A stretch of 64,000 nt of DNA, taken from assembly GCF_030811455.1 (NCBI RefSeq), contig NZ_JAUSQU010000001.1:2976001-3040000 (forward strand). The letters are read 5' to 3'. This document shows, in pieces, positions 42,198-61,642 of this stretch; the stretch's first letter is position 1, and each line of letters opens with the position of its first letter. Source of the stretch: Streptosporangium lutulentum. GTDB taxonomy: Bacteria > Actinomycetota > Actinomycetes > Streptosporangiales > Streptosporangiaceae. The notes under the pieces are model-generated. The model searched no databases and was not told the DNA's origin. It was given only the letters and a program-made list of their open reading frames with translations. Made by a program: the position numbers and the translations under genes.

Positions 42198-42215
42198 TTA
42201 CGGTCGGGACCGTTA
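42198..42215. promoter_or_regulatory. Operator site 1 (TTACGGTCGGGACCGTTA)
   Basis: 18-bp palindrome, core ACGGTC-GG-GACCGT, 18 bp before the GTG of the first beta-propeller gene, next to its GGAGG. Member of the nine-site family that marks every transcription unit from 42.2 to 61.6 kb. Confidence 0.85.
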
Positions 42216-42232
42216 ACTAGCATGGAGGCATC

Positions 42233-44209
42233 GTGAGACTTCGTCTGGCGGCCGTGGCCGCCGCCCTCTTACTCATTCCCACTCCCGCCCTGGCCGAGCA
42301 GACCGCCGCAGCGGCTCCTCCGGCCGGCTGCGGCTTTCAGATCCTCGGGCCAATGCCGCTCGTCGGCGCCACGACCGCGGGCACCGCACTCGACGCCGAT
42401 TATCCGGACGGTCCGCGCGTCTACTCGGTGACCTCCAGCGCGTCCGGCCCGGCGCTGCTGGGCATCCGGAACGCGCTCGACGGCACGCTGATCGCCGAGC
42501 GGCCGCTGCCGCTCGCGCTGGGCTCGTGGGCGGTCACCGTCGCCCCCGACCACTCGGTCTACGTGGGCTCCTACAACGCCACCGTGGGTGCGATGGGCCG
42601 CCTGTTCCGCTACGTTCCGAGCACCGACCAGGTGATCGAGGCGGGCATCGCCGTACCCGGGGAGACCTTCGTCTGGACGGTGGAGGCCAGTCCGGACGGG
42701 AGGTACGTCTACGGCGGCACCTCCCCCACGGGCAAGCTGTTCCGCTATGACGTGGCCAGTGGGCAGACCACCGACCTGGGCAGCCCGGTCCCCGGTCAGC
42801 AGTTCGTCCGCGACCTGGCGACCGGCGACGACGGCACGCTCTACGTGGGCATCGGCTCCCAGACCATGAAGATCGCGGTGGTGGGACCGGACGGCGTCAC
42901 CAAGAAAATCATCGACGCCCCGATCGAGGGCGCCGGCTACGCCTACGACCTCGACGTGGCCGGGCGTTACCTGCTGGTGCGGTTCGTCACCACGCTGTCG
43001 ACCAACCCGATGGGAATCTACGACCTGAAGGAGGGCCGCTGGACGCACGTCATCGACGACGTCGACAGCCTGACCGTGGGCGGCGGTGTGCGCGGGCACG
43101 AGGCCTATCTCTTCCAGAACGACGAGCTGGTCAAGGTCGACCTGAAGAAGGGCCGGGTCACGAAGCTGGGCTTCACCGACTTCGGCGGCGGTGCAGCGCG
43201 CACGCTCGGCTGGGTCGGCCGCACGCTGGTCGGCACCGCCTCGACCGGCAAACTGTGGACCTACGACCTCAAGCGCGGTAAGGCCACGACGTTCGAGACG
43301 ACGCTGACCGGGCAGCCCGTCAGCGTCCGGTCGATGGCCGTCGGCCCCGACGGCCGCATCTACGGGGGCGGCTTCTTCACCGGCGGCCTGGCCGCCTACG
43401 ACACCGCGACCGGCCAGACGCAGTTCTGGCCGAACGTCGGTCAGAGCGAGGGCATCGTCACCCACAAGGGCAAGCTGTACCTCGGCGTCTACCCCGGCGC
43501 GCGGATCTACGAGTTCGACGGCGCCGAGCCCAAACTGCTACTCAGCCTGACCGAGCAGGAGCAGGACCGGCCGTTCGCGATGGTCTCGGCGGGCGACCTG
43601 CTGGCCTTCGGCACCGTGCCCAAGACCGGCGCGGCGGGTGGCGCGCTCGGCCTCTACGACCCCGCCACCGGCAACACGGTGATCAGGCGGAACATCATCC
43701 CCAACCACAGCATCATCGGCCTGGCCTACCGCGACGGCGTCGTCTACGGCGCGACCTCCGCCTTCGGCGGGCTGGGCCGCCCGCTCGACACCGCCGCATA
43801 CGTGTTCGCCTACGACATCGCGACCGACACCGTGAAGTGGAAGACCGCGCCCGTGCCCGGTGACCTGGCGCTCGGCTCGATCACCTTCGACGAGACCGGC
43901 CATCTGTGGGGCATGACGCCCGACGCGGTGTTCGAGATGGACCCGGCGACCGGCCAGACGCTGCGTACGGCCAAGCACCAGGAGTATCCCTGGGCCGCGC
44001 AGACGCAGGTCTGGCTGGACACCAGCATCGAGGCCCACGCGGGCGCGATCTGGGCCAAGGCGCAGGGCAAGGTCTACAAAGTCGACCGGACGACACTGGC
44101 CTTCAGCCTGATCGCCCGGCCGATCTCCCTCATGGTGAAGGCGCCCGACGGGCACCTCTACCTGTCCCGCAACGAGAACTTCTACACCTACCGGATCTGC
44201 GGCTCGTAA
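42233..44209 (+). CDS. Secreted beta-propeller-like protein 1
   Basis: 658 residues from GTG 42233 (GGAGG upstream). Signal peptide MRLRLAAVAAALLLIPTPALAEQ. The mature protein is a run of short four-strand repeats of PQQ/Kelch/SGL-like type: YVGSYNATVGAMGRLFRYVPST, YGGTSPTGKLFRYDVASGQTTDLG, YVGIGSQ, YGGGFFTGGLAAYDTATGQTQFW, YLGVYPGARIYEFD, YGATSAFGG. No catalytic residues are evident; it could be a binding propeller or a lyase/hydrolase. Paralogue of the converging gene 44188-46203; the last 22 bp of the two overlap. First gene under operator site 1. Confidence 0.75.
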   Translation: MRLRLAAVAAALLLIPTPALAEQTAAAAPPAGCGFQILGPMPLVGATTAGTALDADYPDGPRVYSVTSSASGPALLGIRNALDGTLIAERPLPLALGSWAVTVAPDHSVYVGSYNATVGAMGRLFRYVPSTDQVIEAGIAVPGETFVWTVEASPDGRYVYGGTSPTGKLFRYDVASGQTTDLGSPVPGQQFVRDLATGDDGTLYVGIGSQTMKIAVVGPDGVTKKIIDAPIEGAGYAYDLDVAGRYLLVRFVTTLSTNPMGIYDLKEGRWTHVIDDVDSLTVGGGVRGHEAYLFQNDELVKVDLKKGRVTKLGFTDFGGGAARTLGWVGRTLVGTASTGKLWTYDLKRGKATTFETTLTGQPVSVRSMAVGPDGRIYGGGFFTGGLAAYDTATGQTQFWPNVGQSEGIVTHKGKLYLGVYPGARIYEFDGAEPKLLLSLTEQEQDRPFAMVSAGDLLAFGTVPKTGAAGGALGLYDPATGNTVIRRNIIPNHSIIGLAYRDGVVYGATSAFGGLGRPLDTAAYVFAYDIATDTVKWKTAPVPGDLALGSITFDETGHLWGMTPDAVFEMDPATGQTLRTAKHQEYPWAAQTQVWLDTSIEAHAGAIWAKAQGKVYKVDRTTLAFSLIARPISLMVKAPDGHLYLSRNENFYTYRICGS

Positions 44210-46203
44210 CGCAGGAGCCTCGGCCCCTCGGCGAAGTAGACGTCCCCGGACCTGTGCACCGCGAGCTGGTGCACAGGTCCTTCCCTCAATACGGTGTGCC
44301 GCCCCGTCAGCGGGTTGAGCGAGAACACCGATGAGCCCGCGTGCGTGCCGTACAGGGTGAGGTCGCGGAGGTTGTAGACGAGTTGCCCGGCGGCGCTCTT
44401 ACTGTCCGACAGCGTGACCCGGGAGACGACCTTGCGCAGCAGCGGTCTGACCGCGAACACCTCGCCGCCCGCGATCCCCCACAGCCGGCCGAGGGCGTCG
44501 AAGGTCAGTCCTGAGATGGCGGGCTTGCCCGGCGCAGGCGTCATCTCCCACAACAGGCGGTTCTCCCGGACCGACCAGGCGAACAGTTTGGCCTCCGTCT
44601 GCGTCGGCGGGGTCGCCGTCTGGCCGCTGTAGATCGAGGTGCCGCCGTAGACGACGCCGTCGCGGTAGGCCAGCGAGACGATGGACTGGTCCTTGACCAC
44701 GTTGCGCTGGGCGGTCTTCAGCACGCCCTTCTCCGGGTCCCACAGGGCGAACACCCCGCCGAGCTGGCCGAGGTCGGGCATGGTGCCGACGGCAAGGTAC
44801 TTCCCGGCCGAGACCATCGCGCGGGGCCTGATCTGCTTGTCGGCGGCGAAGTCGAAGAGCCTGGCGGGGTTGGGTGCGGGCCCGGCCTCGGGGCTGGGCG
44901 AGTATTCGGTGCTGTTCCACGGCAGCTTGGGGTCATAGGCGTAGACGCGGGCCTCGGGATAGGCGCCGACATACAGCTTGCCCTGGTGCGAGACCATGTC
45001 CTCGCTCTGGGAGAAGGTGTGGAACTCCTGCGTCTGCCCGGTCTTGGGGTCGATCGCGGCGAAGCCGCCGTTGAGGAAGCCACCGGCGTACATCCGGTGG
45101 TCGGGGCCCTCGGACAGGGCGGTGATGTCGATCGGCTCGCCGCGTACGGCGGTCTGCACGAACGACTTGGCGCCGGTCTGCGGGTTGTAGCGGAACATCA
45201 GGCCGCGCCAGAGCATCCCGACGATGCTCCTGCCGGGGTAGTCGGGCAGGCCCAGCTCGGCCCAGCCGATGCCGCGTGAGTTGGCGACGCGGCCGGTGAT
45301 CGGCATGCCGGTGCCGGTGACGGCACGGGTGCGCGGGTCGTAGCGGACGAGCTCGCCCGATTTGATCATGTAGACCCGGCCCTGCTCGTCGGGCGCGGAG
45401 ACGTCGAGGCCGTGGGCGGCGTCGAGCGTGTCGACCCATGCGCCCGCGGCGATGTCCCACACGTGCATGGGGCCCGGGCTCGCACTGCCGAACCGCACGT
45501 ACAGGTAGCCGTCGATGGCGTTGACGTCGTAGGCCCACTGGCCGGCCGGGTCGAAGCCGTCGGGCAGTGGGAGCTGCTTGGAGACGCCGCTGGCGGCGTC
45601 CACCTCGAACAGGGCAGCCGGGGCCTCCATGCCCGCGTAGATCTTGCCGCCCGCCGTGGAGACGCTACGGACGTAGGCGTGGGTGGGAGACAGCCTGCCG
45701 TAGTCGCGCACGCCGGTGGCGGGGTCGTAGCCGAACAGCCGCCCGCCGGGTGAGGTGCCGCCGTAGACGGTGGCGCCCTGGCCGGGTGCGACGGTCCAGA
45801 TGAAGTTCTCCGAGGCGACCGGGCGGCCGAGGTCGCGCACGCCGTCCTGCTCGGTCCAGCGGTAGAGACGGCCGTCGCCGTAGCCGCCGACGTAGACGCT
45901 CCCGTCGGGAGTGACGTCGACGGCCCAGGAGCCGCCCGCGCCCGGCAGGTCGTAGCGGGCCACCTCGGCGCCGGTGGCCGGGTCGATGGCGTTGAGATGG
46001 GCGGGGACGCCCGAGGAGGCCGCCCACAACACGGTCTTGCCACCGGGACCGGGAGCGACGACACCGCCGATGAGCAGGACGTCCTGCAACGGGACGCCCA
46101 GCTCGGTGATTTTGCCTCGGGCGCGGGCCTCGGCGGGTCCCTGGAGCGCCAGCACGGCGGATGCCGCGACGACGATCGCTAAGAATTTCCTGATTAGGGT
46201 CAT
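44188..46203 (-). CDS. Secreted beta-propeller-like protein 2 (paralogue of protein 1)
   Basis: 671 residues from ATG 46203. Signal peptide MTLIRKFLAIVVAASAVLALQGPAEARA. Same repeat series as protein 1 in the same order: SWAVDVTPDGSVYVGGYGDGRLYRW, FIWTVAPGQGATVYGGTSPGGRLFGYDPATG, YAGGFLNGGFAAIDPKTGQTQEFHTFSQSEDMVSHQGKLYVGAYPEARVYAYD, LAYRDGVVYGGTSIYSGQ. It has a 12-residue Pro/Ser-rich insertion (SPSPEAGPAPNP) absent from protein 1. Divergent from the unknown secreted protein at 46276 across operator site 2. Confidence 0.75.
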   Translation of the reverse strand: MTLIRKFLAIVVAASAVLALQGPAEARARGKITELGVPLQDVLLIGGVVAPGPGGKTVLWAASSGVPAHLNAIDPATGAEVARYDLPGAGGSWAVDVTPDGSVYVGGYGDGRLYRWTEQDGVRDLGRPVASENFIWTVAPGQGATVYGGTSPGGRLFGYDPATGVRDYGRLSPTHAYVRSVSTAGGKIYAGMEAPAALFEVDAASGVSKQLPLPDGFDPAGQWAYDVNAIDGYLYVRFGSASPGPMHVWDIAAGAWVDTLDAAHGLDVSAPDEQGRVYMIKSGELVRYDPRTRAVTGTGMPITGRVANSRGIGWAELGLPDYPGRSIVGMLWRGLMFRYNPQTGAKSFVQTAVRGEPIDITALSEGPDHRMYAGGFLNGGFAAIDPKTGQTQEFHTFSQSEDMVSHQGKLYVGAYPEARVYAYDPKLPWNSTEYSPSPEAGPAPNPARLFDFAADKQIRPRAMVSAGKYLAVGTMPDLGQLGGVFALWDPEKGVLKTAQRNVVKDQSIVSLAYRDGVVYGGTSIYSGQTATPPTQTEAKLFAWSVRENRLLWEMTPAPGKPAISGLTFDALGRLWGIAGGEVFAVRPLLRKVVSRVTLSDSKSAAGQLVYNLRDLTLYGTHAGSSVFSLNPLTGRHTVLREGPVHQLAVHRSGDVYFAEGPRLLRYEPQIR

Positions 46204-46246
46204 GACCGGAAACCTAGAAACAGCTAATCTTTCCGTCAAGGGTTAA

Positions 46247-46264
46247 TTTCGGTAACGACCGAAT
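46247..46264. promoter_or_regulatory. Operator site 2 (TTTCGGTAACGACCGAAT)
   Basis: 18-bp imperfect palindrome of the regulon family between divergent genes starting at 46203 and 46276; 43 bp from the first start and 11 bp from the second. Positioned to repress both. Confidence 0.75.
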
Positions 46265-46275
46265 TGGAAAGACTC

Positions 46276-47295
46276 ATGCGTCTGCTTCTCCTGTCCCTGC
46301 TCCTCCTCCCGTTCCTGGCCGCCCCCGCCCAAGCCGCCGCGCTGCCCGGCGGCAAGGCCTACTTCGTCGTCGCACTCGGCCACCTGCGCGCGACCTCGCA
46401 CTCGAACTGGGTCAGCCTGGGCAGCTACACCTTCGGCATGAACGGCTCGGTCAGCGCCGTCGTCTACCACTGGTCGCAGACCACGCCGGTGCGGCGCGCC
46501 GGCACCGGTACCGTGCCGTCGGGCGACTGCTCGCAGCCGGTCAGCACGGCCGCCCCCACTCTGGTCCGGCCGTGCGAGGTTCTGACCGCCGGCGGGTTCA
46601 TGGGCGCGCCGAACCAGTCCAGGACGGGCACCTTCGGCGTGGCCGACGGCGTCGTCACCATCAACTGGACCGACACCCAGGGCGGATCCCAGCAGTGGTA
46701 TGTCACCGACGGCCCCGGGATGGCGGGCCTGACCTACAAGTACGACACCAAGGCCCAGCAGTACGGCCAGGGCTACGGCTTCGGCAGCAACAGTCCCTTC
46801 ACCGAGCGCCGGGCGATGAGCAGCGTGCGATCCTTCCCCGGCACCCTCAAGCAGGACCTCAAGACCTGGGCGCATGACCAGCTCGGCTCCTCCACCGGCC
46901 AGACCTGGACGCACACCGCCTACACCACCTGCACCACGACGACCTGGTGCCTGACCTATCGCCAGCCCAACTCCTCCGCCGTCTGCCAGGAGAGCGGCTG
47001 CCCCGGCTACGGCGGCACGCCGGGCGGCGGCGGTGACAGCTCGCTGCAGAACTACGTCGTCAAGGTTTCCAGCTACGACCGGCGCGACACCTACTGGCAC
47101 TGGTGCACCTGCCTGGCCAAGGTCCGCAGCGAATCCTGCTACACGGGCAACTCACACGTGAAGCCGATGCTGCAGATCATCGACGACGACGGTGCCTTCC
47201 ACGGCTGGGTCGGCGCCGAGGCCTCCTTCTCCTCCGTCGGCGCCGTCTCCGGCGACATGCTCGGTGTCTTCCGCATCACCCACTTCCGCCCCTGA
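46276..47295 (+). CDS. Secreted protein of unknown family
   Basis: 339 residues from ATG 46276 (GGAAAG ribosome-binding site; an in-frame TTG at 46264 is unlikely). Signal peptide MRLLLLSLLLLPFLAAPAQAAA. Mature part rich in Ser/Thr/Gly/Trp with ten Cys, several paired closely (CTTTTWC, CQESGCPGYGG, WCTC), suggesting disulphides, and beta-strand-like ends (HGWVGAEASFSSVG...MLGVFRITHF). No recognised catalytic motif; it might be a carbohydrate-binding or structural protein. Co-controlled with the propellers through site 2. Confidence 0.65.
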   Translation: MRLLLLSLLLLPFLAAPAQAAALPGGKAYFVVALGHLRATSHSNWVSLGSYTFGMNGSVSAVVYHWSQTTPVRRAGTGTVPSGDCSQPVSTAAPTLVRPCEVLTAGGFMGAPNQSRTGTFGVADGVVTINWTDTQGGSQQWYVTDGPGMAGLTYKYDTKAQQYGQGYGFGSNSPFTERRAMSSVRSFPGTLKQDLKTWAHDQLGSSTGQTWTHTAYTTCTTTTWCLTYRQPNSSAVCQESGCPGYGGTPGGGGDSSLQNYVVKVSSYDRRDTYWHWCTCLAKVRSESCYTGNSHVKPMLQIIDDDGAFHGWVGAEASFSSVGAVSGDMLGVFRITHFRP

Positions 47296-47368: not shown

Positions 47369-48517
47369 TCACCGGGCCGCGAGCACCTTGGCCAGCGCCT
47401 CGGCAAGGTCTACGGGACCGGAGGCGTCGTCCATGAGCATCTGCTGGCGCACCCACACCACGCTCCGCGCGGCCTCCTCGGCCGCCGGGCACGGCTCGAC
47501 CCGCGCCCCGGCATCGGTGAGGGCGGCCATCGTGCCGAGGGGCGGGTAGCCGCCGTCGAGCGGCACTCCCTCGGCCGCCATCGCCGCGAGCAGGAACTCC
47601 CGCTCAACGGGGGCCTCCACGCGCAGCATCAGCAGGTGGCGTGAGTCGCGGGTGGTCCCCGCGGGCTGAGGCAGCACACTCACGGGGAGGTCACCAAGGT
47701 CGAGCGCGGCGACGAAGGCCTCACGCCGCGCGATCTCCTCCTCCAGCCGCTCCAGCCACGGCAGCAGCAGCGCCGCCTGGATCTCGGTGAGGCGCAGGTT
47801 CCAGCCGACCTCCGGGTGGCCGTACCACTCACCGCCCAACCGCCTGCCCACGTTGCAGGCCGACCAGATCGCACCGTGCACGGCCTCGTCACGACAGACG
47901 ATTACGCCGCCCTCGCCCGCGGTCATCGCCTTGCTCGACTGGAAGCTGAACACCCCGGCGTCGCCAAGTCCGCCGACGGGCCTGCCGTGGTAGGTCGCCC
48001 CGTGGGCCTGGGCGCAGTCCTCGACGACTTTCAGGCCGTGCCGCACGGCGACGGCGTTCAGCGGGTCCATGTCCACCGGGCTGCCGGCCAGGTGGACCGG
48101 CATGACCGCGGCGGTCCGGCCGGTGACGGCTGCCTCAACCGCCCCGGCCGACAGGTGCAGGTCCGCCGGTTCGACGTCGACGATCACCGGAACGGCTCCG
48201 GCCAGCAGCACGGAGGTGGCCGAGGCGACGAAGGTGTAGGCCGGGACGATCACCTCGTCGCCCTGACCCACCCCCAGTCCACGCAGTGCCGCGAACAGGC
48301 CGAGCGTGGCGTTGGCGACCGTGACCCCGTACGGCGCGCCGGACCGGCGGGCGAACTCCGCCGCCAGGTCCGCGCAGAGCGTGCCCTGGGTGGCGCCCCA
48401 CAGGCCGCTCTCCAGAACCTCGGTGACCAGCTCGCGCTGCGCGCCGGACAGCGGAGGCGGCCACGAGGGCCACGGCTCGGTGCGCACGGGCGTGCCACCG
48501 TCGATGGCGAGTTTCAT
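47369..48517 (-). CDS. DegT/DnrJ/EryC1/StrS-family PLP aminotransferase 1
   Basis: 382 residues from ATG 48517, overlapping the preceding amidohydrolase stop by 4 bp. PLP Lys196 (FQSSKAMTAGEGG), Asp167 in VVEDCAQAHGA pairing with the pyridine N, ANATLGLFAAL phosphate cup. IDGGTPVRTEPWPSWPP at the N-terminus resembles the scyllo-inosose/AHBA-type subgroup. The family transfers an amino group between Glu/Gln and keto-sugars or cyclitols; in a catabolic locus it could run in the deaminating direction. Last gene of the operon 49967-47369. Confidence 0.88.
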   Translation of the reverse strand: MKLAIDGGTPVRTEPWPSWPPPLSGAQRELVTEVLESGLWGATQGTLCADLAAEFARRSGAPYGVTVANATLGLFAALRGLGVGQGDEVIVPAYTFVASATSVLLAGAVPVIVDVEPADLHLSAGAVEAAVTGRTAAVMPVHLAGSPVDMDPLNAVAVRHGLKVVEDCAQAHGATYHGRPVGGLGDAGVFSFQSSKAMTAGEGGVIVCRDEAVHGAIWSACNVGRRLGGEWYGHPEVGWNLRLTEIQAALLLPWLERLEEEIARREAFVAALDLGDLPVSVLPQPAGTTRDSRHLLMLRVEAPVEREFLLAAMAAEGVPLDGGYPPLGTMAALTDAGARVEPCPAAEEAARSVVWVRQQMLMDDASGPVDLAEALAKVLAAR

Positions 48518-49260
48518 GCTGACGTTTCTCCGGTGTGGCGGACGAGACGGGGGCCGAGGACGCGGGCGAGATTGCCGCCCTGGATGAGCGCCCGGTGGGG
48601 TTCCGGGAGCGGGGCGAGCGCGACCCGGCCGAAGCCGACGCGCTGGTCGAGGAAGCAGGCGTCGGTGCCGAACACGACCCGGTCGGCGCCGGTGAGGGCG
48701 GCGAGGCGGGCGATCCAGCGACCGGTCATCTTCGATCCGCAGATCTCCAGCAGGACCGACGGGTGGCCGGCCACGACCTCGGCAGCACCGCGGAAGCCGT
48801 ACGGCCAGAGCCCGGCGTGCCCCATGAGCAGCGGCACCTCCGGGTGGCGGGCGGCGACGGTGGCGAACATCTCCGGGGAGTTCCACGGCGAGTCGGTCTG
48901 GCCGTGCGCGAGCACGGGCAGACCGAGCTCCCACACCGGCTCGTACAACCGGTCATCGAGGCGGCATTGATGCACGTCGGGATGGAGTTTGACGCCCCAG
49001 ACGCCGGGCGCGTCGGCCAGCGGGGTGCGGTGGTGGGGGTTGTAGACCTGCCAGACGCCGAACCTGCCGGGGTGGGCGGCGGCGGCCGCGAAGGCGCGGC
49101 GGTTGCCCTCGACGGCGTCGGGTCCGACCGCGAGCAGGTCGCTGATGCCGGTCGCGGCGATGCCGACCTCGTCCATGGTGGCGATCAGGCCCTCGGCGGA
49201 GGGGTCAGGGATGAGGAAGTCGGGCCAGCTGCCGATGTGGCCGTGCGCGTCGAGAATCAC
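48514..49260 (-). CDS. Amidohydrolase (TIM-barrel, amidohydrolase_2 type), canonical metal site
   Basis: 248 residues from GTG 49260, which overlaps the stop of the previous gene (GTGA). Metal/active-site motifs are all present: DAHGH (His6, His8), GVKLHPD, LAHGQTD, LLMGHAG and FGTDACF (catalytic Asp). The family includes sugar lactonases and ACMSD-like decarboxylases; which reaction applies is unknown. Second gene of the minus-strand operon, between the ligand-poor paralogue and the aminotransferase. Confidence 0.85.
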   Translation of the reverse strand: MILDAHGHIGSWPDFLIPDPSAEGLIATMDEVGIAATGISDLLAVGPDAVEGNRRAFAAAAAHPGRFGVWQVYNPHHRTPLADAPGVWGVKLHPDVHQCRLDDRLYEPVWELGLPVLAHGQTDSPWNSPEMFATVAARHPEVPLLMGHAGLWPYGFRGAAEVVAGHPSVLLEICGSKMTGRWIARLAALTGADRVVFGTDACFLDQRVGFGRVALAPLPEPHRALIQGGNLARVLGPRLVRHTGETSA

Positions 49261-49967
49261 AGCAGGCCCTCCAGCGATCCGGCAACGATCCGGTCGACGT
49301 CGTCCTGGCCCAGGTCGAGGTGGTCCAGCAGGTAGCGGGGCCCGCAGTCGTCGGCGACCGGCGCGCCGGTGCCGAACACGAGCCGGGCCGCGCCGAAGCG
49401 CTCGGCCAGCCACTCGACACCGCCCTGGGTGTTGACGGTGCCGATCTCCAGCCACAGGCCAGGGATCTCGGTCATCAGCTCGGCGATCACGCGCAGCCGG
49501 CGGTAGCCGGGGTTCAGCAGCAGGATGCGCAGATCGGGCAGGCTCCGGGCCAGGGCGAGGAGCTGCGCGGGCGAGGTCTCCTCGAAGTCGACGGCGACGG
49601 GCAGGCCGAGCGCGGCCAGCCAACGCAGCGCGGTGGGGCCGGTCAGCTCCCAGCGGTGGCGCTCGGGGCAGAGCCGGACCAGGCGAACGCCCCAGCCCAG
49701 CACCTCCTCTACCCCCCCGGGCGTACCGGCCCCCGGCACTCCCGGCACCACCACGGGCACCGGGACCATGCGGGGGTCGTCGAGCTCCAGCAGGGCCTCA
49801 TTGCCGGCCTGGGGGTCGGCGTAGAGGCTGAGTGTGTGCGTCACGTACGCTCGCTCGATGCCCAGCCGGTCCATGTCGGGGCGGGGGTCTTCCGGCAGGT
49901 CGTCGAAGGGCACCCGCCCGATGAGCCGGTGTGCGTCGACCAGTTCGGCCGGTTTATATTTCGGCAC
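49257..49967 (-). CDS. Amidohydrolase-fold protein lacking most metal ligands
   Basis: 236 residues from GTG 49967. It has the overall barrel order of its neighbour (DMDRLGIERAYVTHTLS..., WGVRLVRLCPE, LPVAVDFEE, LRILLLNPG, LWLEIG, RLVFGTGAPVADD) but the metal positions are replaced: VDAHRLIG for DxHxH, RLCPE for KLHPD, LLNPG for MGHAG, FGTGAP for FGTDA. So it is probably not a metallohydrolase by itself. It is translationally coupled to the canonical enzyme that follows. The GTG start lies inside operator site 3, so the message may be leaderless. Confidence 0.75.
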   Translation of the reverse strand: MPKYKPAELVDAHRLIGRVPFDDLPEDPRPDMDRLGIERAYVTHTLSLYADPQAGNEALLELDDPRMVPVPVVVPGVPGAGTPGGVEEVLGWGVRLVRLCPERHRWELTGPTALRWLAALGLPVAVDFEETSPAQLLALARSLPDLRILLLNPGYRRLRVIAELMTEIPGLWLEIGTVNTQGGVEWLAERFGAARLVFGTGAPVADDCGPRYLLDHLDLGQDDVDRIVAGSLEGLL

Positions 49968-49976
49968 AGGCCGAAA
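49959..49976. promoter_or_regulatory. Operator site 3 (TTTCGGCACAGGCCGAAA)
   Basis: 18-bp palindrome with perfect 7-bp arms (ATTTCGGC-ACAG-GCCGAAAT when extended by one base each side). It covers the presumed GTG start (49967) of the minus-strand operon. Confidence 0.75.
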
Positions 49977-50134: not shown

Positions 50135-50152
50135 TTATGGTCATGACCGGTA
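50135..50152. promoter_or_regulatory. Operator site 4 (TTATGGTCATGACCGGTA)
   Basis: 18-bp site with core GGTC-AT-GACC, 22 bp before ATG 50174 of the plus-strand amidohydrolase operon. The weakest outer arms of the nine, but core, spacing and position fit. Confidence 0.7.
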
Positions 50153-51651: not shown

Positions 51652-51729
51652 GGGGTCCCCGGGCAGGTCACACCCCCACCTTCTTCAGCCTCCCGGTCGG
51701 CTGAGGGACCTTCGGGCAGGTCACATCCC
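51631..51729. repeat. Imperfect tandem duplication of a gene 3' end
   Basis: Units 51631-51676 and 51684-51729, about 83% identical, offset 53 bp. The first contains the stop of the amidohydrolase gene; the second would encode FSLPVG-stop in the same way and supplies the last codons of the converging DapA-like gene. Confidence 0.7.
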
Positions 51730-53575: not shown

Positions 53576-54459
53576 GCGTTTCCCCGATCGAGCAGGCGGC
53601 GCTGGGCCAGCGACACGACGAGCACCAGCGCGAAGAGCACGATGCCGATCGTGGCCGCGTAGCCGAGGTTGGAGAATCTGAAACCCTGGTCGTACAGGCC
53701 GTAGATGAGCGTGTAACTCGCCCTGGCCGGCCCTCCACCGGTCATCACGTAGATGGTGTCGAACGTCTGGAAGGCTCCGATGGTCTCGATGATGACGACG
53801 AAGAACAGGGCGGGCCTGAGCAGCGGCAGCGTGATCCGGCGGAACCGCTGCCACGGCCCGGCCCCGTCGACCGTCGCCGCCTCCAGGTAGGAGGTCGGGA
53901 TCGACTTGAGGCCCGCGAGCAGGATCAACATGGAGTAGCCGAAGCCCTTCCACACCGACACCACCGCCAGCGCGGGCAGGACGAGGGCGGTTTCCTCCAG
54001 GAAGCCGACGGGGCCGAGATCGAGCTTGTCCAGCAGCCCGTTGATCATTCCGTCGAACTCGTAGATCCACCGCCAGATCACGCCGGCCAGCACGAAACTG
54101 GTGACGTACGGCAGGAAGAGCATGCCCCGGAACAGCCCGCGCATGAAGACGACCGCGTTGAGCAGCAGCGCGGTGCCGAGCGCGATGAGAACGGTCAGGG
54201 GCACATAGATCGCGACATAGACCAGCGTGATCCGCAGACTGTCCCAGAACTTCGGATCGTCGAACAACCGGGCGTAGTTGTCGACGCCGATGAAGTTCCA
54301 CTCACCGCCGAGGTTCAGATCGGTCAGGCTCATGCCCCCTGCGCCCAGGATGGGTACGAACCTGAAGATCAGGAAGAGCACCAGCATGGGGAGGACGAAC
54401 AGCAGGCCCATCATGGGGTCCCGCATGCGCTGTCGCACAGGTTCACGCCTTTCGCACAT
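53572..54459 (-). CDS. Sugar ABC transporter permease 1 (CUT1, MalF-like)
   Basis: 295 residues from ATG 54459 (AGGGGG upstream). Six transmembrane helices, FIGVDNYARLFDDPKFWDSLRITL periplasmic-side motif and EAA loop SYLEAATVDGAGPWQRFRRITLPLLRP. Forms the channel with permease 2. 35 bp downstream of the binding-protein gene. Confidence 0.93.
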   Translation of the reverse strand: MCERREPVRQRMRDPMMGLLFVLPMLVLFLIFRFVPILGAGGMSLTDLNLGGEWNFIGVDNYARLFDDPKFWDSLRITLVYVAIYVPLTVLIALGTALLLNAVVFMRGLFRGMLFLPYVTSFVLAGVIWRWIYEFDGMINGLLDKLDLGPVGFLEETALVLPALAVVSVWKGFGYSMLILLAGLKSIPTSYLEAATVDGAGPWQRFRRITLPLLRPALFFVVIIETIGAFQTFDTIYVMTGGGPARASYTLIYGLYDQGFRFSNLGYAATIGIVLFALVLVVSLAQRRLLDRGNA

Positions 54460-54494
54460 AACGGCCCCCTGCCGGGACAAGGGGGCGAATCGCT

Positions 54495-55742
54495 TCAGCC
54501 GCCGTTGGCCAGCAGCGTATTGGCCTCCTGGGCCGCGTCGTCGAGGGCCGTCTTGGCGTCCTTCTTGCCGAGCAGGGCAGCCTGGATCTCCGGCACGATC
54601 AGCGCCATCACCTGACGGGCCATCGGGTGGGTGTCACCCGGGAAGGCGTACTCCAGCGACTTGGCGAACTCCTGGACGACCGGGGAGGCACCGGGCACGG
54701 TCACGTCGGTGCGCGCCGGGAAGAAGCCCGACTCCTTGGCCAGCTCCGCCGAGACCTCCGGCGAGGACAGGAAGGCGGCGAACTTCTTGGCGGCCTCGGC
54801 GTTCGGCGAGTGCTTGGCCAGCACGAGCCCGCCGGGGATGCCGAACGCGACCTTCTTCTTGCTCTCCAGCGGCAGCCCGACGCCGACGTTGTCATCGCCG
54901 ATGGCCGCGCCGAACTGGGTGGCCTGCAGCGCGGTGGCCGCGTGGTAGACGGCCGTCTTGCCCGCGGCCAGCGGGCCGCCCTCGATGTCGTTCTTCTTGG
55001 TCGCCGCGTTCTCCGGCAGGCCGCCCAGCTTCTGCAGGTCGAGCAGGAACTGCAGGGCCTCGACGCCCTCGGGTCCGTTGAAGGCGACGGTCTTGCCGTC
55101 GGCGGCGAACACGCTGCCGCCGTTGCCCCACAGCAGCGGGTAGAAGCTCTGGTTCAGGCCGACCTCGGGGGCACCCGGGTAGTCGAGGATCGCGACCTTC
55201 TGGGCGGCGAGCTTGGGCGCGGCGGCCTTGAACGCCTCCCAGGTCTGGGGGAAATCGGTCACGCCCGCGTCGGCGAACACCTTCTTGTTGTAGATCGGCG
55301 CGGTGACGGTCTGGTAGATCGGCACGCCGTAGAGCTTGCCGTCCATGGTCAGCGCGGTGAGGGCGTTGGGCAGGAAGGAGGCCTTGGCGGGGGCCACCAC
55401 GTCGTCCACCGGGGCGAGCGCGCCCTGCTGGGCGTACTGGGGGATCTGGTCGGGGCCGAGCACGACCAGATCGAAGCCCTTCTTCGAGGCGAGTGCCGTG
55501 GTGACCTTCTCCTGGCGTCCGTCCCAGGGCTGCTGGTCGATCTTGAGGTCGATCGTGGCGTTCTTGGCCTCGAAGTCCTTCTCGACCTTGGTCCAGAACG
55601 CCTGACTCTTGGCCTGGTCCCCGATCACGGGATACATCCACAGCGTCACCGTGCTCTTGTCCGACCCTGAGCCGGAGCCGCCGCATCCGGCGAGTGTGAC
55701 TCCCAGGGCGGCCGCGAGGCCGGTGAGTGCGACTTTCCTCAT
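54495..55742 (-). CDS. ABC transporter sugar-binding lipoprotein
   Basis: 415 residues. Lipoprotein signal with lipobox LAGC (Cys20), then the Gly/Ser linker GGSGSGSDKS and a CUT1-type (SBP_bac_1) fold: VTLWMYPVIGDQAKSQAFWTKVEKDFE, DLVVLGPDQIPQYAQQGALAPVDD, YGVPIYQTVTAPIYNKKVF, LLWGNGGSVFAADGKTVAFN. First gene of the importer operon (55742 to 51721); operator site 5 lies 42-59 bp before its start. No ATPase gene in the window, so a shared MsiK/MsmX-type ATPase is expected. Confidence 0.92.
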   Translation of the reverse strand: MRKVALTGLAAALGVTLAGCGGSGSGSDKSTVTLWMYPVIGDQAKSQAFWTKVEKDFEAKNATIDLKIDQQPWDGRQEKVTTALASKKGFDLVVLGPDQIPQYAQQGALAPVDDVVAPAKASFLPNALTALTMDGKLYGVPIYQTVTAPIYNKKVFADAGVTDFPQTWEAFKAAAPKLAAQKVAILDYPGAPEVGLNQSFYPLLWGNGGSVFAADGKTVAFNGPEGVEALQFLLDLQKLGGLPENAATKKNDIEGGPLAAGKTAVYHAATALQATQFGAAIGDDNVGVGLPLESKKKVAFGIPGGLVLAKHSPNAEAAKKFAAFLSSPEVSAELAKESGFFPARTDVTVPGASPVVQEFAKSLEYAFPGDTHPMARQVMALIVPEIQAALLGKKDAKTALDDAAQEANTLLANGG

Positions 55743-55783: not shown

Positions 55784-55801
55784 TACCGGTCCAGACCGAA
55801 A
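55784..55801. promoter_or_regulatory. Operator site 5 (TACCGGTCCAGACCGAAA)
   Basis: 18-bp palindrome with core CGGTC-CA-GACCG between the importer operon (start 55742, minus) and the stop of the aminotransferase at 55816. A second ATACCGG half-site lies 18 bp nearer the start codon. Confidence 0.8.
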
Positions 55802-55815: not shown

Positions 55816-56985
55816 TCAGAAGGGGTCAATGCCCGATATCCGAACGTAACGCCGAAACCCCTCGGCGATCGCCGTGACGTGGTCGGCGGTGTAGTTCTCG
55901 TTCAGGTCCACGATCAGCAGCGTCTCACCGACCAGGCGGTCCGCCTCGGGGCAGGCGGTGGGCGGCGCCGTCAGGGGGAAACGGGACGTGCCGTACATCG
56001 GCCCGTCCCACAGCGGTGCCCGGTTGAGCGGCTCGGCCAGATACCCGGCCCGGGCCGGAATCCCGTCGGCGGCCAACCTGGCGGCGAGCTCGCGCGCTCC
56101 CCCGCCCGGCAGCACGACCGGGAAGTACCACCACGCGTGCCCGCGGGGGTCGGGCAGCGCGAGGCCGGGCAGCCCCGCCAACTCCCGCAGCAACCGTAGA
56201 GCCCAGCGCCGCCGGGCGCCCACCACCCCGGGCAGCTTGACCAACTGCGCCCGGGCCACGGCGGCCTGCAGTTCGGTCATCCGGTAGTTGAGCCCGAAGC
56301 TCTGGTGGTGCCGCCCGCCGGCCCGGTCCCAGCCCTTGTCGGAGAACAGGCGCATCGCCATGGCCAGCGCGTCGTCATCGGTGATCACAAGGCCGCCGTC
56401 GCCGCACGTGATGTGCTTCCACTGCTGCAGGCTGAAGCAGCCGACCTCGCCGACACCGCCTACCGGCCGTCCGTCGGGCAACTCGCCCAGCCAAGCCTGC
56501 GCGCAGTCCTCGATCAGCATGAGCCCGTGCTCGTCGGCGATCACCCGCAACTCGTCCAGAGCCGCGGTGGCGCCGAAGAGATGCACCGCCATGATCGCCC
56601 TGGTACGCGGAGTGATCGCGGCCCGAACGGCGCCCGGATCGAGATTCCCCGAGAGTGGATCGACGTCGGCGAAGACAGGGACCGCGTTCTGCGCCAAGAT
56701 AGGGGCCACGGTTCCGAAGTCGGTCATGGGCGTCGTGATGATCTCATCGCCCGGATCGGGGGCGGCCGCCACGACCGCGAGGTGCAGAGCCGCGGTGCCC
56801 GAGCTGCACGCGACAGCGTGCCGGGCGCCGCACAACTCGGCCATCTCGCGTTCGAGCGCCTTGGCTTCGGTGCCCCACACGGAGTTGAGCATCCCCGAGC
56901 GGATCACCCGCTCGACGGCGGCCACCTCCTCGTCGCCGAGTGTCCTGCCGTCCGCTTCCGCGGCGCTGGGGAACTTCGGAGTCAC
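55816..56985 (-). CDS. DegT/DnrJ/EryC1/StrS-family PLP aminotransferase 2
   Basis: 389 residues. PLP Lys190 (LQQWKHITCGDGG), Asp160 (LIEDCAQAWLG), SSGTAALHL phosphate-binding turn. The GSVWG-type N-terminus (RSGMLNSVWGTEAKALERE) and QQWKH differ from aminotransferase 1 (FQSSKAM), so the two are not recent duplicates and probably use different substrates. Divergent from the regulator gene; operator site 6 lies between. Confidence 0.88.
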   Translation of the reverse strand: MTPKFPSAAEADGRTLGDEEVAAVERVIRSGMLNSVWGTEAKALEREMAELCGARHAVACSSGTAALHLAVVAAAPDPGDEIITTPMTDFGTVAPILAQNAVPVFADVDPLSGNLDPGAVRAAITPRTRAIMAVHLFGATAALDELRVIADEHGLMLIEDCAQAWLGELPDGRPVGGVGEVGCFSLQQWKHITCGDGGLVITDDDALAMAMRLFSDKGWDRAGGRHHQSFGLNYRMTELQAAVARAQLVKLPGVVGARRRWALRLLRELAGLPGLALPDPRGHAWWYFPVVLPGGGARELAARLAADGIPARAGYLAEPLNRAPLWDGPMYGTSRFPLTAPPTACPEADRLVGETLLIVDLNENYTADHVTAIAEGFRRYVRISGIDPF

Positions 56986-57011: not shown

Positions 57012-57029
57012 TAGCGGTCTTGACCGTAA
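57012..57029. promoter_or_regulatory. Operator site 6 (TAGCGGTCTTGACCGTAA)
   Basis: 18-bp palindrome with core GCGGTC-TT-GACCGT in the 62-bp space between aminotransferase 2 (start 56985) and the regulator (start 57048). Implies autoregulation and regulation of the aminotransferase. Confidence 0.85.
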
Positions 57030-57047: not shown

Positions 57048-58253
57048 GTGGGGATCCTCATCGGGGTGGTCGGCCCCCACGACCTGGTCGACGACGTGGC
57101 GGCCGTCTGCGAGGAACAACCGGGTGTGAGCACCCTGCGGCTCGACTACGACCACGAGTCCCAGGCGCCCACGATCGTCGAGGCGCACGCGAACGCGGTG
57201 GAGGGCTGGCTGTTCACCGGCATCGTGCCGCACATGCTCGCGCACGAGGCCGACGTCCTCACCCGTCCCGCCACGTTCGTTGACTACTCGGGCGCGACCC
57301 TGCTCAGCGCCCTCGTACGGCTCCAGCACCAGGGCCACGACGTCACCCGCCTGTCCATCGACACCCTGTCGAGCGCCGAGGTGACCGCCACGTTCGCCGA
57401 GGCCGGCCTGCCCACCGACGAGCTGCGGGTGCTCCCCTGGCGCAGCGGCACGACCTCGCAGTCGGCCATCGCCTTCCACCGTCGCGGCGGCGAGCACGTC
57501 GTGATCACCTGCCTCAGCTCGGTGCACGAGGCGTTGCGCGGCAAGCTCCCCGTGCTGCGCCTGGCACCGTCGGTGCACTCGGTCCGCGTCGCCCTGCGCC
57601 AGCTCCTGATGTCCGCGGAGGGCCAGGCGCATGAGGACGCGCAGATCGCGCTGGGACTGATCGAGCTCGACGGCGAGGAAGGCCTGCTGCGCGAGGCGAC
57701 CGCGCTGGGCGGCACGCTCGCGGCCTTCCGCGGCGGCATCCATCTGCTGGTCACCACCCGCGGCCCGTTGCACGACGCGACGGGCGGCTTCTCCAGCCTG
57801 CCGATGCTGTCGCGGCTGGCCGCCTACAGCCGGGTCGTGCGGGCCGGGTTCGGTCTGGGCCGCAGCGCCGCCGAGGCCGAGAGCCTGGCCCGCAGGGCGC
57901 TGGCCAGGGCACGGCGCATCGGCGACGTGGCCGCGGTGCTGTCGCTGCGGGCCGACACCGACGTCGTGCTGGAGTCGGTCGCCCCGCCCCCGGCCAGCGA
58001 GACGAACCTGCCGCTCCTGGCCCACCGGGTGGGCCTGTCGGTGGCGACGCTGGAGAAACTGCTGGAGGCTCGGGCGACAGTGGGCGATCAGCCGCTGACC
58101 ACCCGCGAGATCGCCGAGCGGCTCGCGGTGCAGCAGCGCACGGCCCGCCGGATGCTGCACCGCCTGGAGCTGGCCGGGCTGGCCGAACGCACCGGCAACC
58201 TCTCCAGCGGCTCCAGTGGCCGCCCGCTGACGCTCTACCGCCTGACCCTTTAG
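57048..58253 (+). CDS. Winged-helix regulator with sensor and GGDEF-like regions; candidate regulator of the locus
   Basis: 401 residues from GTG 57048, AGGAGG five bases upstream. N-terminal part (1-150) starts ILIGVVGPHDLVDDVAAVCEEQ and resembles PrpR-N/periplasmic-binding-like sensory domains. The middle part (about 190-310) has GGTLAAFRGGIHLLVTTRGPLH and RVVRAGFGLGRSAAEAESLARRALARARR, the pattern of degenerate GGDEF/cyclase-like domains in CdaR-type regulators. The C-terminus is a winged helix: LTTREIAERLAVQQRTARRMLHRLELAGLAERTGN. The only DNA-binding protein in the block and itself behind operator site 6, so the natural candidate for binding the nine palindromes (inference). Stop overlaps the DapA-like gene 2 end by 4 bp. 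Confidence 0.7.
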   Translation: MGILIGVVGPHDLVDDVAAVCEEQPGVSTLRLDYDHESQAPTIVEAHANAVEGWLFTGIVPHMLAHEADVLTRPATFVDYSGATLLSALVRLQHQGHDVTRLSIDTLSSAEVTATFAEAGLPTDELRVLPWRSGTTSQSAIAFHRRGGEHVVITCLSSVHEALRGKLPVLRLAPSVHSVRVALRQLLMSAEGQAHEDAQIALGLIELDGEEGLLREATALGGTLAAFRGGIHLLVTTRGPLHDATGGFSSLPMLSRLAAYSRVVRAGFGLGRSAAEAESLARRALARARRIGDVAAVLSLRADTDVVLESVAPPPASETNLPLLAHRVGLSVATLEKLLEARATVGDQPLTTREIAERLAVQQRTARRMLHRLELAGLAERTGNLSSGSSGRPLTLYRLTL

Positions 58254-59305
58254 CGCAACCACCGGTCCAGTCCCTCGGCGACGAACTCGTCGTCGCGTAG
58301 CCACGGATAGGCCGCCCAGATCCGGTCGATCTCGGCGAGCTGCCCGGGGGAGAGCTCCTCCTCCGGGTCCAGGCACCAGCGCCCGGCCAGCAGACCCTGG
58401 CGCCGCAACACCTCGTGGATACCGGGGATGCAGCCGTGGAAGCCGTGCTCGGCGTCGAAGATGGCGGCGTTGGCGTCGGTCAGGTGCCCGTCGAGGGTGA
58501 GCAGCCTGCGCACGGCGGCGTCGTCGCCGCCACGGGCGCGCCGCGCCTCGTCGAGCAACTCGACCGCCCGCCTCACCCACACCGCCCACTGGCCGAGGAG
58601 ACCGCCGACGAACTCGACGTCGACCTCGTCACCGTCCACGACGACTCGGTGCGAAGTGATCAGGTCCGACAGGATGTGGTCGTCGTTGCCGGTGTAGAGC
58701 GCCACCTCGCGGGTGCGCCCGGCCCTGACCACACCGTGGAGCACGTCCAGCGTCCGGTAACGGTTGAACGGGGCGACCTTGATGCCGACGACCGCGTCGA
58801 TCGAGGCCAGGCGCGTCCAGTAGTCGCGGGTCAGCGCCCGGCCGCCGACGGCGGGCTGCAGGTAGAAGCCGATCACCGGCAGCACCTCCCCCACCGCGCG
58901 GGTCCGCTCGATGAGCTGGTCCTCGTCCAGCTCGCGGTGCGGGCTCAGCAGCACCATGTGGTAGCCGAGCGAGGCCGCCAGTTCCGCCTCCGCCACCGCC
59001 TGCGCGGTGCTGCCGGTCGCGCCCGCCACCAGCACCACCTCGCGCTCGTAGCCTCGGACGGTCTCGGCGGCCAACTCCAACACGGGCGGCAGCAGGCCGG
59101 TGCCGTGGATCGCGAACTGGGTCGTGTGTACCCCGACGGCCAGGCCGCCCGCCCCCGCCTCGACGTAGTAGCGAGTCAGCGCCCGCTGCCGCCGCTCGTC
59201 GAGCCGCCGGTCCTCGGTCAGCGCCAGAGGGTGCGCCGGGATGACCATGCCCTTGCGGAACAGGTCGTGGACGGAGCCCTGTCTCTCAGGTGCCGTGCTG
59301 AGCAC
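58250..59305 (-). CDS. DapA-superfamily protein 2
   Basis: 351 residues from GTG 59305 (AAAGGGGAACG upstream). Schiff-base Lys176 (DAVVGIKVAPFN), Tyr148 (VIGFYLQP). Strand 2/loop reads LAVGVHTTQFAIHGTGLL instead of GTTGE, so the substrate differs from dihydrodipicolinate. Longer C-terminal helical tail than DapA, ending SPGQLAEIDRIWAAYPWLRDDEF. Not a close match to DapA-like protein 1. Second gene of the operon with the extended SDR (33 bp spacing). Confidence 0.85.
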   Translation of the reverse strand: MLSTAPERQGSVHDLFRKGMVIPAHPLALTEDRRLDERRQRALTRYYVEAGAGGLAVGVHTTQFAIHGTGLLPPVLELAAETVRGYEREVVLVAGATGSTAQAVAEAELAASLGYHMVLLSPHRELDEDQLIERTRAVGEVLPVIGFYLQPAVGGRALTRDYWTRLASIDAVVGIKVAPFNRYRTLDVLHGVVRAGRTREVALYTGNDDHILSDLITSHRVVVDGDEVDVEFVGGLLGQWAVWVRRAVELLDEARRARGGDDAAVRRLLTLDGHLTDANAAIFDAEHGFHGCIPGIHEVLRRQGLLAGRWCLDPEEELSPGQLAEIDRIWAAYPWLRDDEFVAEGLDRWLR

Positions 59306-59337: not shown

Positions 59338-60354
59338 TCAGAACGCGCCGTCACGGCGCTCGAATTTGGTGGGCTTGCCCAGCAGCGGCCCCCCGTCACT
59401 CACCCAGCGGGCGGTGTGCTCGACCAGTTCGGCGAGCGTGAGATCGGGGTAGCCGAAAAGACCGTGGCAGCGCGAGGCGTTGGACAGCAGCGCCGTGGGG
59501 GCCTCCTCGCCGACGAAGACCGGCTCCCTGTCCAGTAGGCGGCCGAGGTCGGTGGCGACCTGCCGTACCGAGACCAGCTCGGGTCCGGTCACGTTGAGCA
59601 CGTACGGCGGGACGGAGGCCAGCAGCAGCGAGCGGAGCGTCACCTCGTTGGCGTAGCCCTGCCAGACCACGTTCGCCTGGCCGGTGGTCACGTCGATGGC
59701 CTGTCCGGCGACGATCTTCTGCGCGAGGTCGACCAGCACGCCGTAGCGCATTTCGACGGCGTAGTTGAGCCGGATCAGTGCCGTCGGCGTGCCGCGCTCC
59801 TCGGCGAAATGAGTGAGCACACGCTCGCGGCCCAGGCAGCTCATGGCGTAGTCGCCGACCGGCCCGGTGGGCGAGTCCTCCGTGGGACCGCCGGAGGTGA
59901 CCGGGACGAGCGGGTAGACGTTGCCCGTCGACAGCGCGGCGATCCTGCTGCCCGCGAACCGGTCGGCCACGCGACCTGGCAGGTAGGCGTTGGTGAACCA
60001 GGTGGCGTGCTCGCGCCCCTGGGTGCCGAACTTGGCCCCGACGAGGAAGACCACGTTGGGCGCGTCGGGCAGCTCCCGCAGCGTGTTCTCGTCGGCAACG
60101 TCGGCCGCCACGACCGTGGCGCCCTCGTCGCTGAGCGCCTGTGCCAGGCCCGGCTCGGAGAAACGCGACACCGCGATGACACGCTTGCCGCCTCCGGCCG
60201 CCCTGACCCCGTTCAATGCCAGGCGGACGAGGCTGGGGCCCAGCTTGCCGCCGGCGCCGAGCACCATGATGTCGCCGTCGAGCTTGCCCAGATCCTCGAC
60301 CAGCCCGTCACGGGGGCGCGACAGGCGTTCTTCCAGCTCTGCGATGGTCCGCAC
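59338..60354 (-). CDS. NAD-dependent epimerase/dehydratase (extended SDR)
   Basis: 338 residues from GTG 60354, GAGGAG nine bases upstream. Rossmann motif LGAGGKLGPSL after an N-terminal extension of 28 residues (MRTIAELEERLSRPRDGLVEDLGKLDGD). YAMSCLGRE occupies the catalytic YxxxK position with Arg or Leu instead of the usual Lys (Y-A-M-S-C), and STGNVYP gives the Ser/Thr. So activity may be altered or Lys replaced. First gene of the operon 60354-58250 behind operator site 7. Confidence 0.8.
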   Translation of the reverse strand: MRTIAELEERLSRPRDGLVEDLGKLDGDIMVLGAGGKLGPSLVRLALNGVRAAGGGKRVIAVSRFSEPGLAQALSDEGATVVAADVADENTLRELPDAPNVVFLVGAKFGTQGREHATWFTNAYLPGRVADRFAGSRIAALSTGNVYPLVPVTSGGPTEDSPTGPVGDYAMSCLGRERVLTHFAEERGTPTALIRLNYAVEMRYGVLVDLAQKIVAGQAIDVTTGQANVVWQGYANEVTLRSLLLASVPPYVLNVTGPELVSVRQVATDLGRLLDREPVFVGEEAPTALLSNASRCHGLFGYPDLTLAELVEHTARWVSDGGPLLGKPTKFERRDGAF

Positions 60355-60374
60355 GCGGAACTCCTCACTCTCAT

Positions 60375-60392
60375 TTACGGTCCAGACCGTAA
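60375..60392. promoter_or_regulatory. Operator site 7 (TTACGGTCCAGACCGTAA)
   Basis: A perfect 8-bp-arm palindrome around CA, 21 bp before GTG 60354. One of the two perfect sites; with site 9 it defines the consensus TTACGGTC-NN-GACCGTAA. Confidence 0.9.
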
Positions 60393-60446
60393 CTGGATGC
60401 GAGTTCGGCTGTCAACGCCCGCCCGGCGTGCCGGGCGGACGGGATC

Positions 60447-61343
60447 CTAGGCGCAGGCCTCGCGGGCGGCCACCAGCGTGCCGAGCACGGACCTGGTCTG
60501 CTCCCAGGGCACCGGGCTCGGGGCGCCGCCCACCATGGACAAAAACGCCTCCACGGTGCCCCGGTAGCCCAGGCCGACGAGGTGGTCCGGCCCAGGCTCC
60601 ACCACGACCTCATGGGTGCCGGCGCGCGTGTGGACACTGACCGTGTACGACTCCTCGTCGGTGACCCCGACGACCTCCACGGTGCCGACGACGCCGTTCT
60701 CCCAGGCCAGCGCCATGACGCCGGTGTCCTCCGACTTCAGAGCGGTGTAGGAGCGGGTGGCGGCCGCCGCCCCGGCCAGCCTCACGGCGGGGCCGAGAAG
60801 GGCGACCAGCAGTTCCACACCGTGCACGCCCATGGTCACCATCGTGCCGCCGCCCACGGCCGGGTCGTCCTGCCACGGGTTGTGGCCACCCGCCCACAGG
60901 CCCACGTCGTGCCGTACGGTGGCCCGCACCGAGAGCACCTCCCCAAGGTCCTCGGCCATCAGAGCGGTGAAGGCGGGCGCGAAGCGCAGCACCGAGGTGG
61001 ACAACACCAGCTCGGGCCGCGAAGAGGCCGCCACGTCGACGGCGGCAAGCTGGGCGGCGGTCGCGGCGGCCGGTTTGTTGACGAAGCACGGCAGGTCCGC
61101 CGCCAGCACCCGGGCGAGCGCGGGAGCCACCCCCGGGTTGGGCACAGTCAGCACCACTCCGTCGGGGCGGGCGGCGAGCAGATCGTCCAGCCCGGCGGCG
61201 ACCTCGGCCCCGGGATGTTCCTCGGTGAAGCGGGCCAGCCGAGCCCGGTCCTCCTCCCACACCATGAGGTCGGCGTGGGAGGCGAGGGTGCGGGCGTCGG
61301 TGTAGGGGTGGCTGGTGGCCAGCCCGGCGATGGCGATGCGCAC
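60447..61343 (-). CDS. Gfo/Idh/MocA-family NAD(P)-dependent oxidoreductase
   Basis: 298 residues, a little shorter than usual (330-390). N-terminal Rossmann start MRIAIAGLATSHPY (third Gly of GxGxxG missing, as in some members), VVLTVPNPG, the catalytic Lys90 in FVNKPAAAT, and the C-terminal domain DVGLWAGGHNPWQDDPAVGGGTMVTMGVHGVELLVALLG with the His that usually participates in catalysis. Oxidises or reduces a sugar/cyclitol hydroxyl or imine (family). Single-gene unit; sites 8 and 9 lie upstream. Confidence 0.87.
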   Translation of the reverse strand: MRIAIAGLATSHPYTDARTLASHADLMVWEEDRARLARFTEEHPGAEVAAGLDDLLAARPDGVVLTVPNPGVAPALARVLAADLPCFVNKPAAATAAQLAAVDVAASSRPELVLSTSVLRFAPAFTALMAEDLGEVLSVRATVRHDVGLWAGGHNPWQDDPAVGGGTMVTMGVHGVELLVALLGPAVRLAGAAAATRSYTALKSEDTGVMALAWENGVVGTVEVVGVTDEESYTVSVHTRAGTHEVVVEPGPDHLVGLGYRGTVEAFLSMVGGAPSPVPWEQTRSVLGTLVAAREACA

Positions 61344-61529
61344 GACGTTCTCCTGGTCGGTGAGGGGCTACCGACCGTACACCTCACGCGGGGAGCACAA
61401 ACGTGGGCCGTAGTCGGCCGTTGTCGTGGAGGGCGTCCGAAAAGCCGGCGTTCGAGCAGCCGTTCATGCTGGTCGCCGCGATGAGTCGGCGACATGGGAG
61501 ACCCTCACGTCTGATCCTCGATGCGAGGA

Positions 61530-61547
61530 TTACAGCCCCGACCGTAA
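61530..61547. promoter_or_regulatory. Operator site 8 (TTACAGCCCCGACCGTAA)
   Basis: 18-bp site, right arm perfect (GACCGTAA), left arm with two changes. 187 bp upstream of the Gfo/Idh start, on its promoter side. Confidence 0.7.
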
Positions 61548-61624
61548 ATAGCGTTGGAACGCTACAGGCACGCCAGAGCGGCTCATATGCCTTATTGATC
61601 CTTGACAGATCATCGCACACCTGT

Positions 61625-61642
61625 TTACGGTCGGGACCGTAA
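61625..61642. promoter_or_regulatory. Operator site 9 (TTACGGTCGGGACCGTAA)
   Basis: A perfect palindrome, extendable to TTTACGGTC-GG-GACCGTAAA. Lies 178 bp before the secreted protease GTG and may control it, the Gfo/Idh gene, or both. Confidence 0.88.

Follow-up and report, generated by a model that had tools for sequence, protein, structure and literature searches.

An 18-bp palindrome with 16 specified bases recurs along one gene block of Streptosporangium lutulentum, within the 64,000-nucleotide stretch of DNA analysed here (hereafter the window). This raises the question of whether these palindromes are operators and, if so, which protein binds them, how it acts on transcription and what the adjoining genes do together. 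A preliminary description, made from the sequence alone, had listed nine sites and taken them to define a complete regulon. All nine are present where it placed them. Of the 16 specified bases, the sites at 46247 and 49959 match 12 and 11, respectively, and the other seven 13-16. A tenth site, at 46194 (14/16), was absent from that list (Table 1).

Table 1. Palindromic sites and genes of the block, in window coordinates; x/16 gives the specified bases matched, and scores and ranks are those of the relatives-only matrix in the window
Feature	Coordinates	Strand	Remarks
Operator before A	42198..42215	+	15/16; matrix 25.4, rank 4; A start 17 bp on
A, secreted tandem beta-propeller (DUF6923)	42233..44209	+	secretion inferred from N-terminus
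B, secreted beta-propeller (DUF6923)	44188..46203	-	start re-assigned
Operator of B	46194..46211	-	14/16; matrix 22.0, rank 6; predicted ATG of B inside
Weak operator before C	46247..46264	+	12/16; matrix 15.0, rank 10
C, secreted protein without Pfam family	46276..47295	+	start re-assigned
D, DegT-family aminotransferase	47369..48526	-	
E, amidohydrolase with HxH	48514..49263	-	
F, amidohydrolase-like, second His lost	49257..49967	-	
Weak operator of F-E-D	49959..49976	-	11/16; matrix 15.4, rank 9; predicted GTG of F inside
Operator before G-H	50135..50152	+	13/16; matrix 21.5, rank 7
G, amidohydrolase-like, Asp replaces both His	50174..50920	+	
H, amidohydrolase with HxH	50917..51651	+	
I, DapA-like	51721..52701	-	
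J, ABC importer permease	52712..53578	-	read as part of longer frame
K, ABC importer permease	53572..54480	-	
L, sugar-type binding protein	54495..55742	-	matches sugar-binding proteins
Operator of importer operon L-K-J-I	55784..55801	-	13/16; matrix 24.2, rank 5
M, DegT-family aminotransferase	55816..56985	-	
Operator common to divergent M and N	57012..57029		14/16; matrix 26.4, rank 3
N, proposed regulator	57048..58253	+	PrpR-N-like fold, GGDEF/GTP-cyclohydrolase-III-like fold, C-terminal winged helix
O, DapA-like	58250..59305	-	
P, NAD-dependent epimerase-like	59338..60354	-	
Operator of P-O	60375..60392	-	16/16; matrix rank 1
Q, Gfo/Idh oxidoreductase, neighbour	60447..61343	-	regulon membership uncertain
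Site 187 bp from Q start	61530..61547		14/16; matrix rank 8
Site 282 bp from Q start, own rightward promoter	61625..61642	+	16/16; matrix rank 2

At three or fewer mismatches the window holds eight sites, where 100 shuffles gave a mean of 0.07 and a maximum of 1. The scoring matrix was built from the sites of related genomes only (196 sites, 70 distinct), so that its use on the window involves no circularity; it places the nine sites and 46194 at ranks 1-10, with scores from 30.6 to 15.0, and the eleventh rank falls to 7.9. A simulated 10.6-Mb sequence reaches the score of 46247 about 10 times and that of 49959 about 8 times, and these two sites therefore lean on their position; for 49959 a better match (TTTCGGCACAGACCGAAA) is found at the corresponding place of the relative G087. 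The best matrix score in the first 42 kb of the window is 5.6, in agreement with the earlier remark that this part carries no copies. A genome-wide search, which the preliminary description had proposed, points the same way: across the 10.64-Mb genome all six sites with two or fewer mismatches fall inside the block, and at three or fewer there are 22, of which eight are in the block and the other 14 are close to the 11 given by a reversed-pattern control.

A lack of conservation upstream of orthologous genes had been named beforehand as a result that would refute the regulon, and conservation was found. In 72 loci encoding relatives of N, fetched from named genomes (1.41 Mb; mostly Nonomuraea, together with Streptosporangium, Micromonospora, Actinophytocola, Pseudonocardia and others), we recovered 245 sites with three or fewer mismatches, where each of 20 palindromes made by shuffling the letters gave between 0 and 11; four of the loci had none. 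Gene order varies among these loci, yet the sites track the first genes of operons. In relatives a site precedes P in 56 of 56 cases, N in 63 of 70, M in 55 of 58, L in 35 of 38, A in 4 of 4, B in 14 of 19 and G in 21 of 38, whereas none precedes the operon-internal genes D (0/12), E (0/13), H (0/42), J (0/41), K (0/49) or O (0/57). Counts are low for F (3/14), I (3/53) and Q (3/51), and the tally leaves out C and R (0/0). Because the genomes are related, neither these per-locus counts nor the per-genome counts given below are independent. The frequency at N agrees with the earlier proposal that the regulator's own promoter belongs to the regulon; nine of the 72 loci are without a site near N, among them the N-bearing clusters L055 and L056 (L077 holds only the end of N). 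The palindromes most probably serve as the operators of a single transcription factor, and they keep their place before orthologous genes despite rearrangement, with F, I and Q as the exceptions. The claim of a site at every transcription unit finds no support at Q, given the distance of 61530 and 61625 from its start and its low count in relatives. That of a confinement to promoter-side gaps is inexact at 49959, which overlaps the predicted start codon of F, as 46194 does that of B.

The protein proposed to act through these operators is N. Its predicted model has a mean pLDDT of 83, with residues 313-319 and 382-401 below 50. By fold, residues 1-195 match PrpR-type sensors (2q5c: Z 17.0, rmsd 3.0, 184 aligned; 2pju: Z 16.0, rmsd 2.6, 179 aligned), and residues 199-309 match both GTP cyclohydrolase III (2qv6: Z 10.2, rmsd 2.7, 98 aligned) and a GGDEF domain (3tvk: Z 9.9, rmsd 2.5, 106 aligned). 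The GG(D/E)EF signature is absent from the 29 members aligned, in which the strand pair reads like FRGGIHLLVTTRG; this domain probably binds without catalysing. The helix-turn-helix matches fall around residues 336-384. At E <= 0.01 Pfam matched the C-terminal winged helix and no other part of the window protein, below curated cut-offs (best 25 of 30 families, whole set). There was no LacI model among the 23 families at E <= 0.1, no sigma-54 AAA+ match and no sequence match to the PrpR-N sensor; a PDB sequence search with N gave nothing below E 0.05.

N, in our view, is likely to be an autoregulated, substrate-released repressor of a little-known type, with these sites as its operators. We infer that N binds them from its co-occurrence with the motif and its position in the block, in line with the earlier designation of this protein as the likely regulator; we also infer repression rather than activation, the ligand and the pathway. 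Under this model, N would sit on each palindrome as a dimer, with its C-terminal winged helices making the contact, and would block RNA polymerase where the site covers the -10 box or transcription start. N would come off when a metabolite occupies the PrpR-N-like domain, perhaps with a nucleotide bound by the GGDEF-like domain as well, and its release would turn on the importer, the secreted beta-propeller proteins and the enzymes that serve to take up and degrade a carbohydrate-like compound, perhaps an amino sugar or a cyclitol.

The direction of control is suggested by promoter geometry. In the window, P (TTGACA-18-TACGGT) and A (TTGCCA-17-TACGGT) have their -10 boxes inside the site, L (TTGACC-18-TAAATT) and F (TTGACT-18-TAGATT) have theirs at the site edge, and the promoter of B (TTGACG-17-TAGGTT) directly precedes site 46194, with the predicted ATG at the site centre. 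Among relatives, the site is preceded, at 22-23 or 27-28 bp, by a TTGAC box in 56 of 56 cases for P, 33 of 35 for L, 4 of 4 for A, 2 of 3 for F and 1 of 14 for B; no box was found in that register for M (0/55), N (0/63), G (0/21), I (0/3) or Q (0/3). The overlap of the -10 box with the site, at promoters with a clear -35 box, suggests a repressor, a geometry limited to the readable promoters because M, N, G, I and Q have no TTGAC box in register and B has one in a single case. The same M, N and G could instead be read as promoters that N activates, N being an activator, or both activator and repressor, at these promoters: they have no canonical -35 box in register in relatives, and PrpR itself is an activator. 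We regard this as unlikely, since at P, L, A and F, and in the window also at B, the site coincides in part with the -10 box or transcription start, where a bound protein normally blocks polymerase.

Two further observations concern individual promoters. The predicted starts of B (46203) and F (49967) sit at the centre of their own operators, which suggests leaderless transcripts. At the right-hand end of the block, the promoter of site 61625 (TTGACA-18-TACGGT) faces right, towards the gene R (window 61820-62719), which encodes a secreted protein without a Pfam family that we take to be protease-like and cut short. The stretch holding 61530 and 61625 is without alignment to the two closest relatives fetched, and the natural target of 61625 may have been displaced.

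Is N itself the protein that reads the sites? The order is represented by 297 genomes, of which 58 carry a close N (E below 1e-85) and 58 a site with at most one mismatch; 52 have both, six the motif only, six N only and 233 neither. Outside the order, among the 353 genomes that a sample of the class contributes (N cut-off E <= 1e-60), 14 have both, six the motif only, two N only and 331 neither. With genomes this closely connected by descent, p-values calculated from the counts exaggerate their independence; the co-occurrence outside the order is the stronger point. At the looser cut-off of E <= 1e-10, N homologues occur in 284 of the 297 genomes of the order, and distant ones appear in Paenibacillus and Bacillus records. 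Should a regulator encoded elsewhere bind the sites, N would be merely one of its targets, and the genomes with a site at no more than one mismatch and no close N (6 of 58 within the order, 6 of 20 outside) would fit such an arrangement, unless these are chance sites; eight genomes in the two sets show the reverse, N with no site at this threshold. We find such a regulator improbable, and more so than activation by N, in view of the strong co-occurrence, which extends beyond the order. Moreover, four of seven loci (picked by eye) that have N and few or no partners have lost the site near N, and N is the only one of the block proteins scanned with a helix-turn-helix match. Non-regulatory palindromes, such as mobile-element ends, structural or methylation motifs or chance matches, might be entertained as the window is IS-rich beside the block according to the preliminary description, but are practically dismissed by the specificity for the block and by the finding that coding stretches with a match to window proteins account for 49% of the bases yet contain just 2 of the 245 sites.

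Sites also occur at remote loci in N-bearing relatives. Fifteen such loci were collected: a beta-propeller homologue stands at the site in ten, a homologue of C in one, and in another a PQQ-like propeller (below the Pfam cut-off) with a divergent sorbosone-dehydrogenase protein bearing carbohydrate-binding modules. Of the remaining three, one has a secreted C39-like protein, one an Nramp transporter and one a gene, presumably MerR-like, whose called frame contains the site. At one remote locus (L115) a second site precedes a binding protein with 37% identity to L. Given these sites, in relatives the regulon acts in trans, centred on extracellular, partly carbohydrate-binding proteins, and the description of the regulon of the block as complete is not supported. 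Separately, a perfect site lies between enolase-superfamily and luciferase-like monooxygenase genes in L132 (12988-15185) and L131 (16573-18761), the Pfam assignments having been made on L132 only; both genomes carry an N of about 50% identity.

What the targets have in common can be read in part from their families. We favour uptake and breakdown of a carbohydrate-like compound, and an amino-sugar or cyclitol step is plausible given the DegT enzymes. PDB sequence searches with several block proteins gave broad relatives only, and an NCBIfam scan of ten proteins gave no model above cut-off. The predicted model of A (mean pLDDT 87) is a tandem propeller. A role of the beta-propellers as polysaccharide lyases was considered and set aside: the fold of A matches many unrelated propellers (best Z 29.7, for WDR5; 29.1 for virginiamycin B lyase) and therefore gives no function. 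The block also contains two adjacent amidohydrolase pairs (48514-49967 and 50174-51651), each with one intact member and one without metal ligands, and this asymmetry is conserved in relatives. E keeps HxH and the late Asp in 13 of 13, and H keeps HxH in 43 of 45 (two unreadable) and the late Asp in 45 of 45; F is without the second His in 15 of 15 and without the late Asp in 14 (one unreadable), and G has DxD in 41 of 43 (two unreadable) and no late Asp in 42 (one unreadable). In Nonomuraea loci (L009, L012, L023 and others) additional genes, which we take to be hydantoinase A/B-like, lie near the cluster in 22 and 18 loci; they are not counted as members.

Paralogues of N bear on how widely this operator plan may apply. 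The genome of S. lutulentum has one further homologue, of 33% identity and in two pieces (L109 1273-2778, at about 7.35 Mb), preceded by a gene that is presumably murA-like. We looked for palindromes upstream of 11 paralogue loci: that of a paralogue with 49% identity (L143) has matrix scores of 19.9 and 15.8, and no similar palindrome was found upstream of those at 46, 38 and 35% identity. Three paralogues with 30-31% identity to N (L140, L142 and L145) head an importer operon; in L140 and L142 the palindrome TTACGAAC-NNN-GTTCGTAA lies 34 bp before the start, and L145 has a less exact form at -86. As these loci are near-identical, their palindromes count as one or two events rather than three. 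This small, non-independent sample fits a family-wide operator plan. A tentative extension, which we put forward with more doubt than belief, is that N may be the first recognised case of a Gram-positive transcription-factor family combining a metabolite sensor of PrpR-N-like fold, a GGDEF/GTP-cyclohydrolase-III-like domain that has lost catalysis and, at the C-terminus, a winged helix. Its members would read substrate and nucleotide together and repress a transporter-linked pathway via TTACG-xxx palindromes, with targets including amidohydrolase pairs with one metal-ligand-less partner, suggestive of two-subunit enzymes of a new catabolic route.

The literature matches listed include, by title, none that describes this regulon, and a search with both half-sites and the word regulon gave, by title, none on these organisms; these limited, title-level searches are consistent with its having been called apparently undescribed. 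Two Deinococcus papers among the matches contain one half-site once each. For a regulator type without a Pfam sensor domain in the window protein, the analysis supplies an operator defined exactly enough to search genomes with, and a list of probable targets. It would tie some fifteen poorly annotated genes, the secreted propellers and the amidohydrolase pairs among them, into a single co-regulated pathway, to whose substrate the binding protein and the inducer offer a way.

Among known systems, the LacI-type local repressors resemble the N system in having palindromic operators at a catabolic block and at the regulator's own promoter, and an ABC sugar-type importer as target; LacI sensor domains are also among the fold matches of N (3edc: Z 9.7, rmsd 6.3, 172 aligned). 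LacI-family proteins, however, have an N-terminal LacI helix-turn-helix, whereas N has a C-terminal helix-turn-helix, a GGDEF-like middle domain and no Pfam match to the LacI helix-turn-helix. With PrpR, a sigma-54 activator, N shares the sensor fold (residues 1-195), but at 11-13% identity, and N is without a match to the sigma-54 AAA+ domain of such activators. Residues 199-309 resemble GTP cyclohydrolase III and GGDEF domains in fold, and the members aligned differ from GGDEF diguanylate cyclases in the signature that marks the latter. PrpR of M. tuberculosis is reported to be an acyl-CoA and iron-sulphur protein (PMC6765138). N departs from each of the LacI, PrpR and GGDEF families in a feature that defines it.
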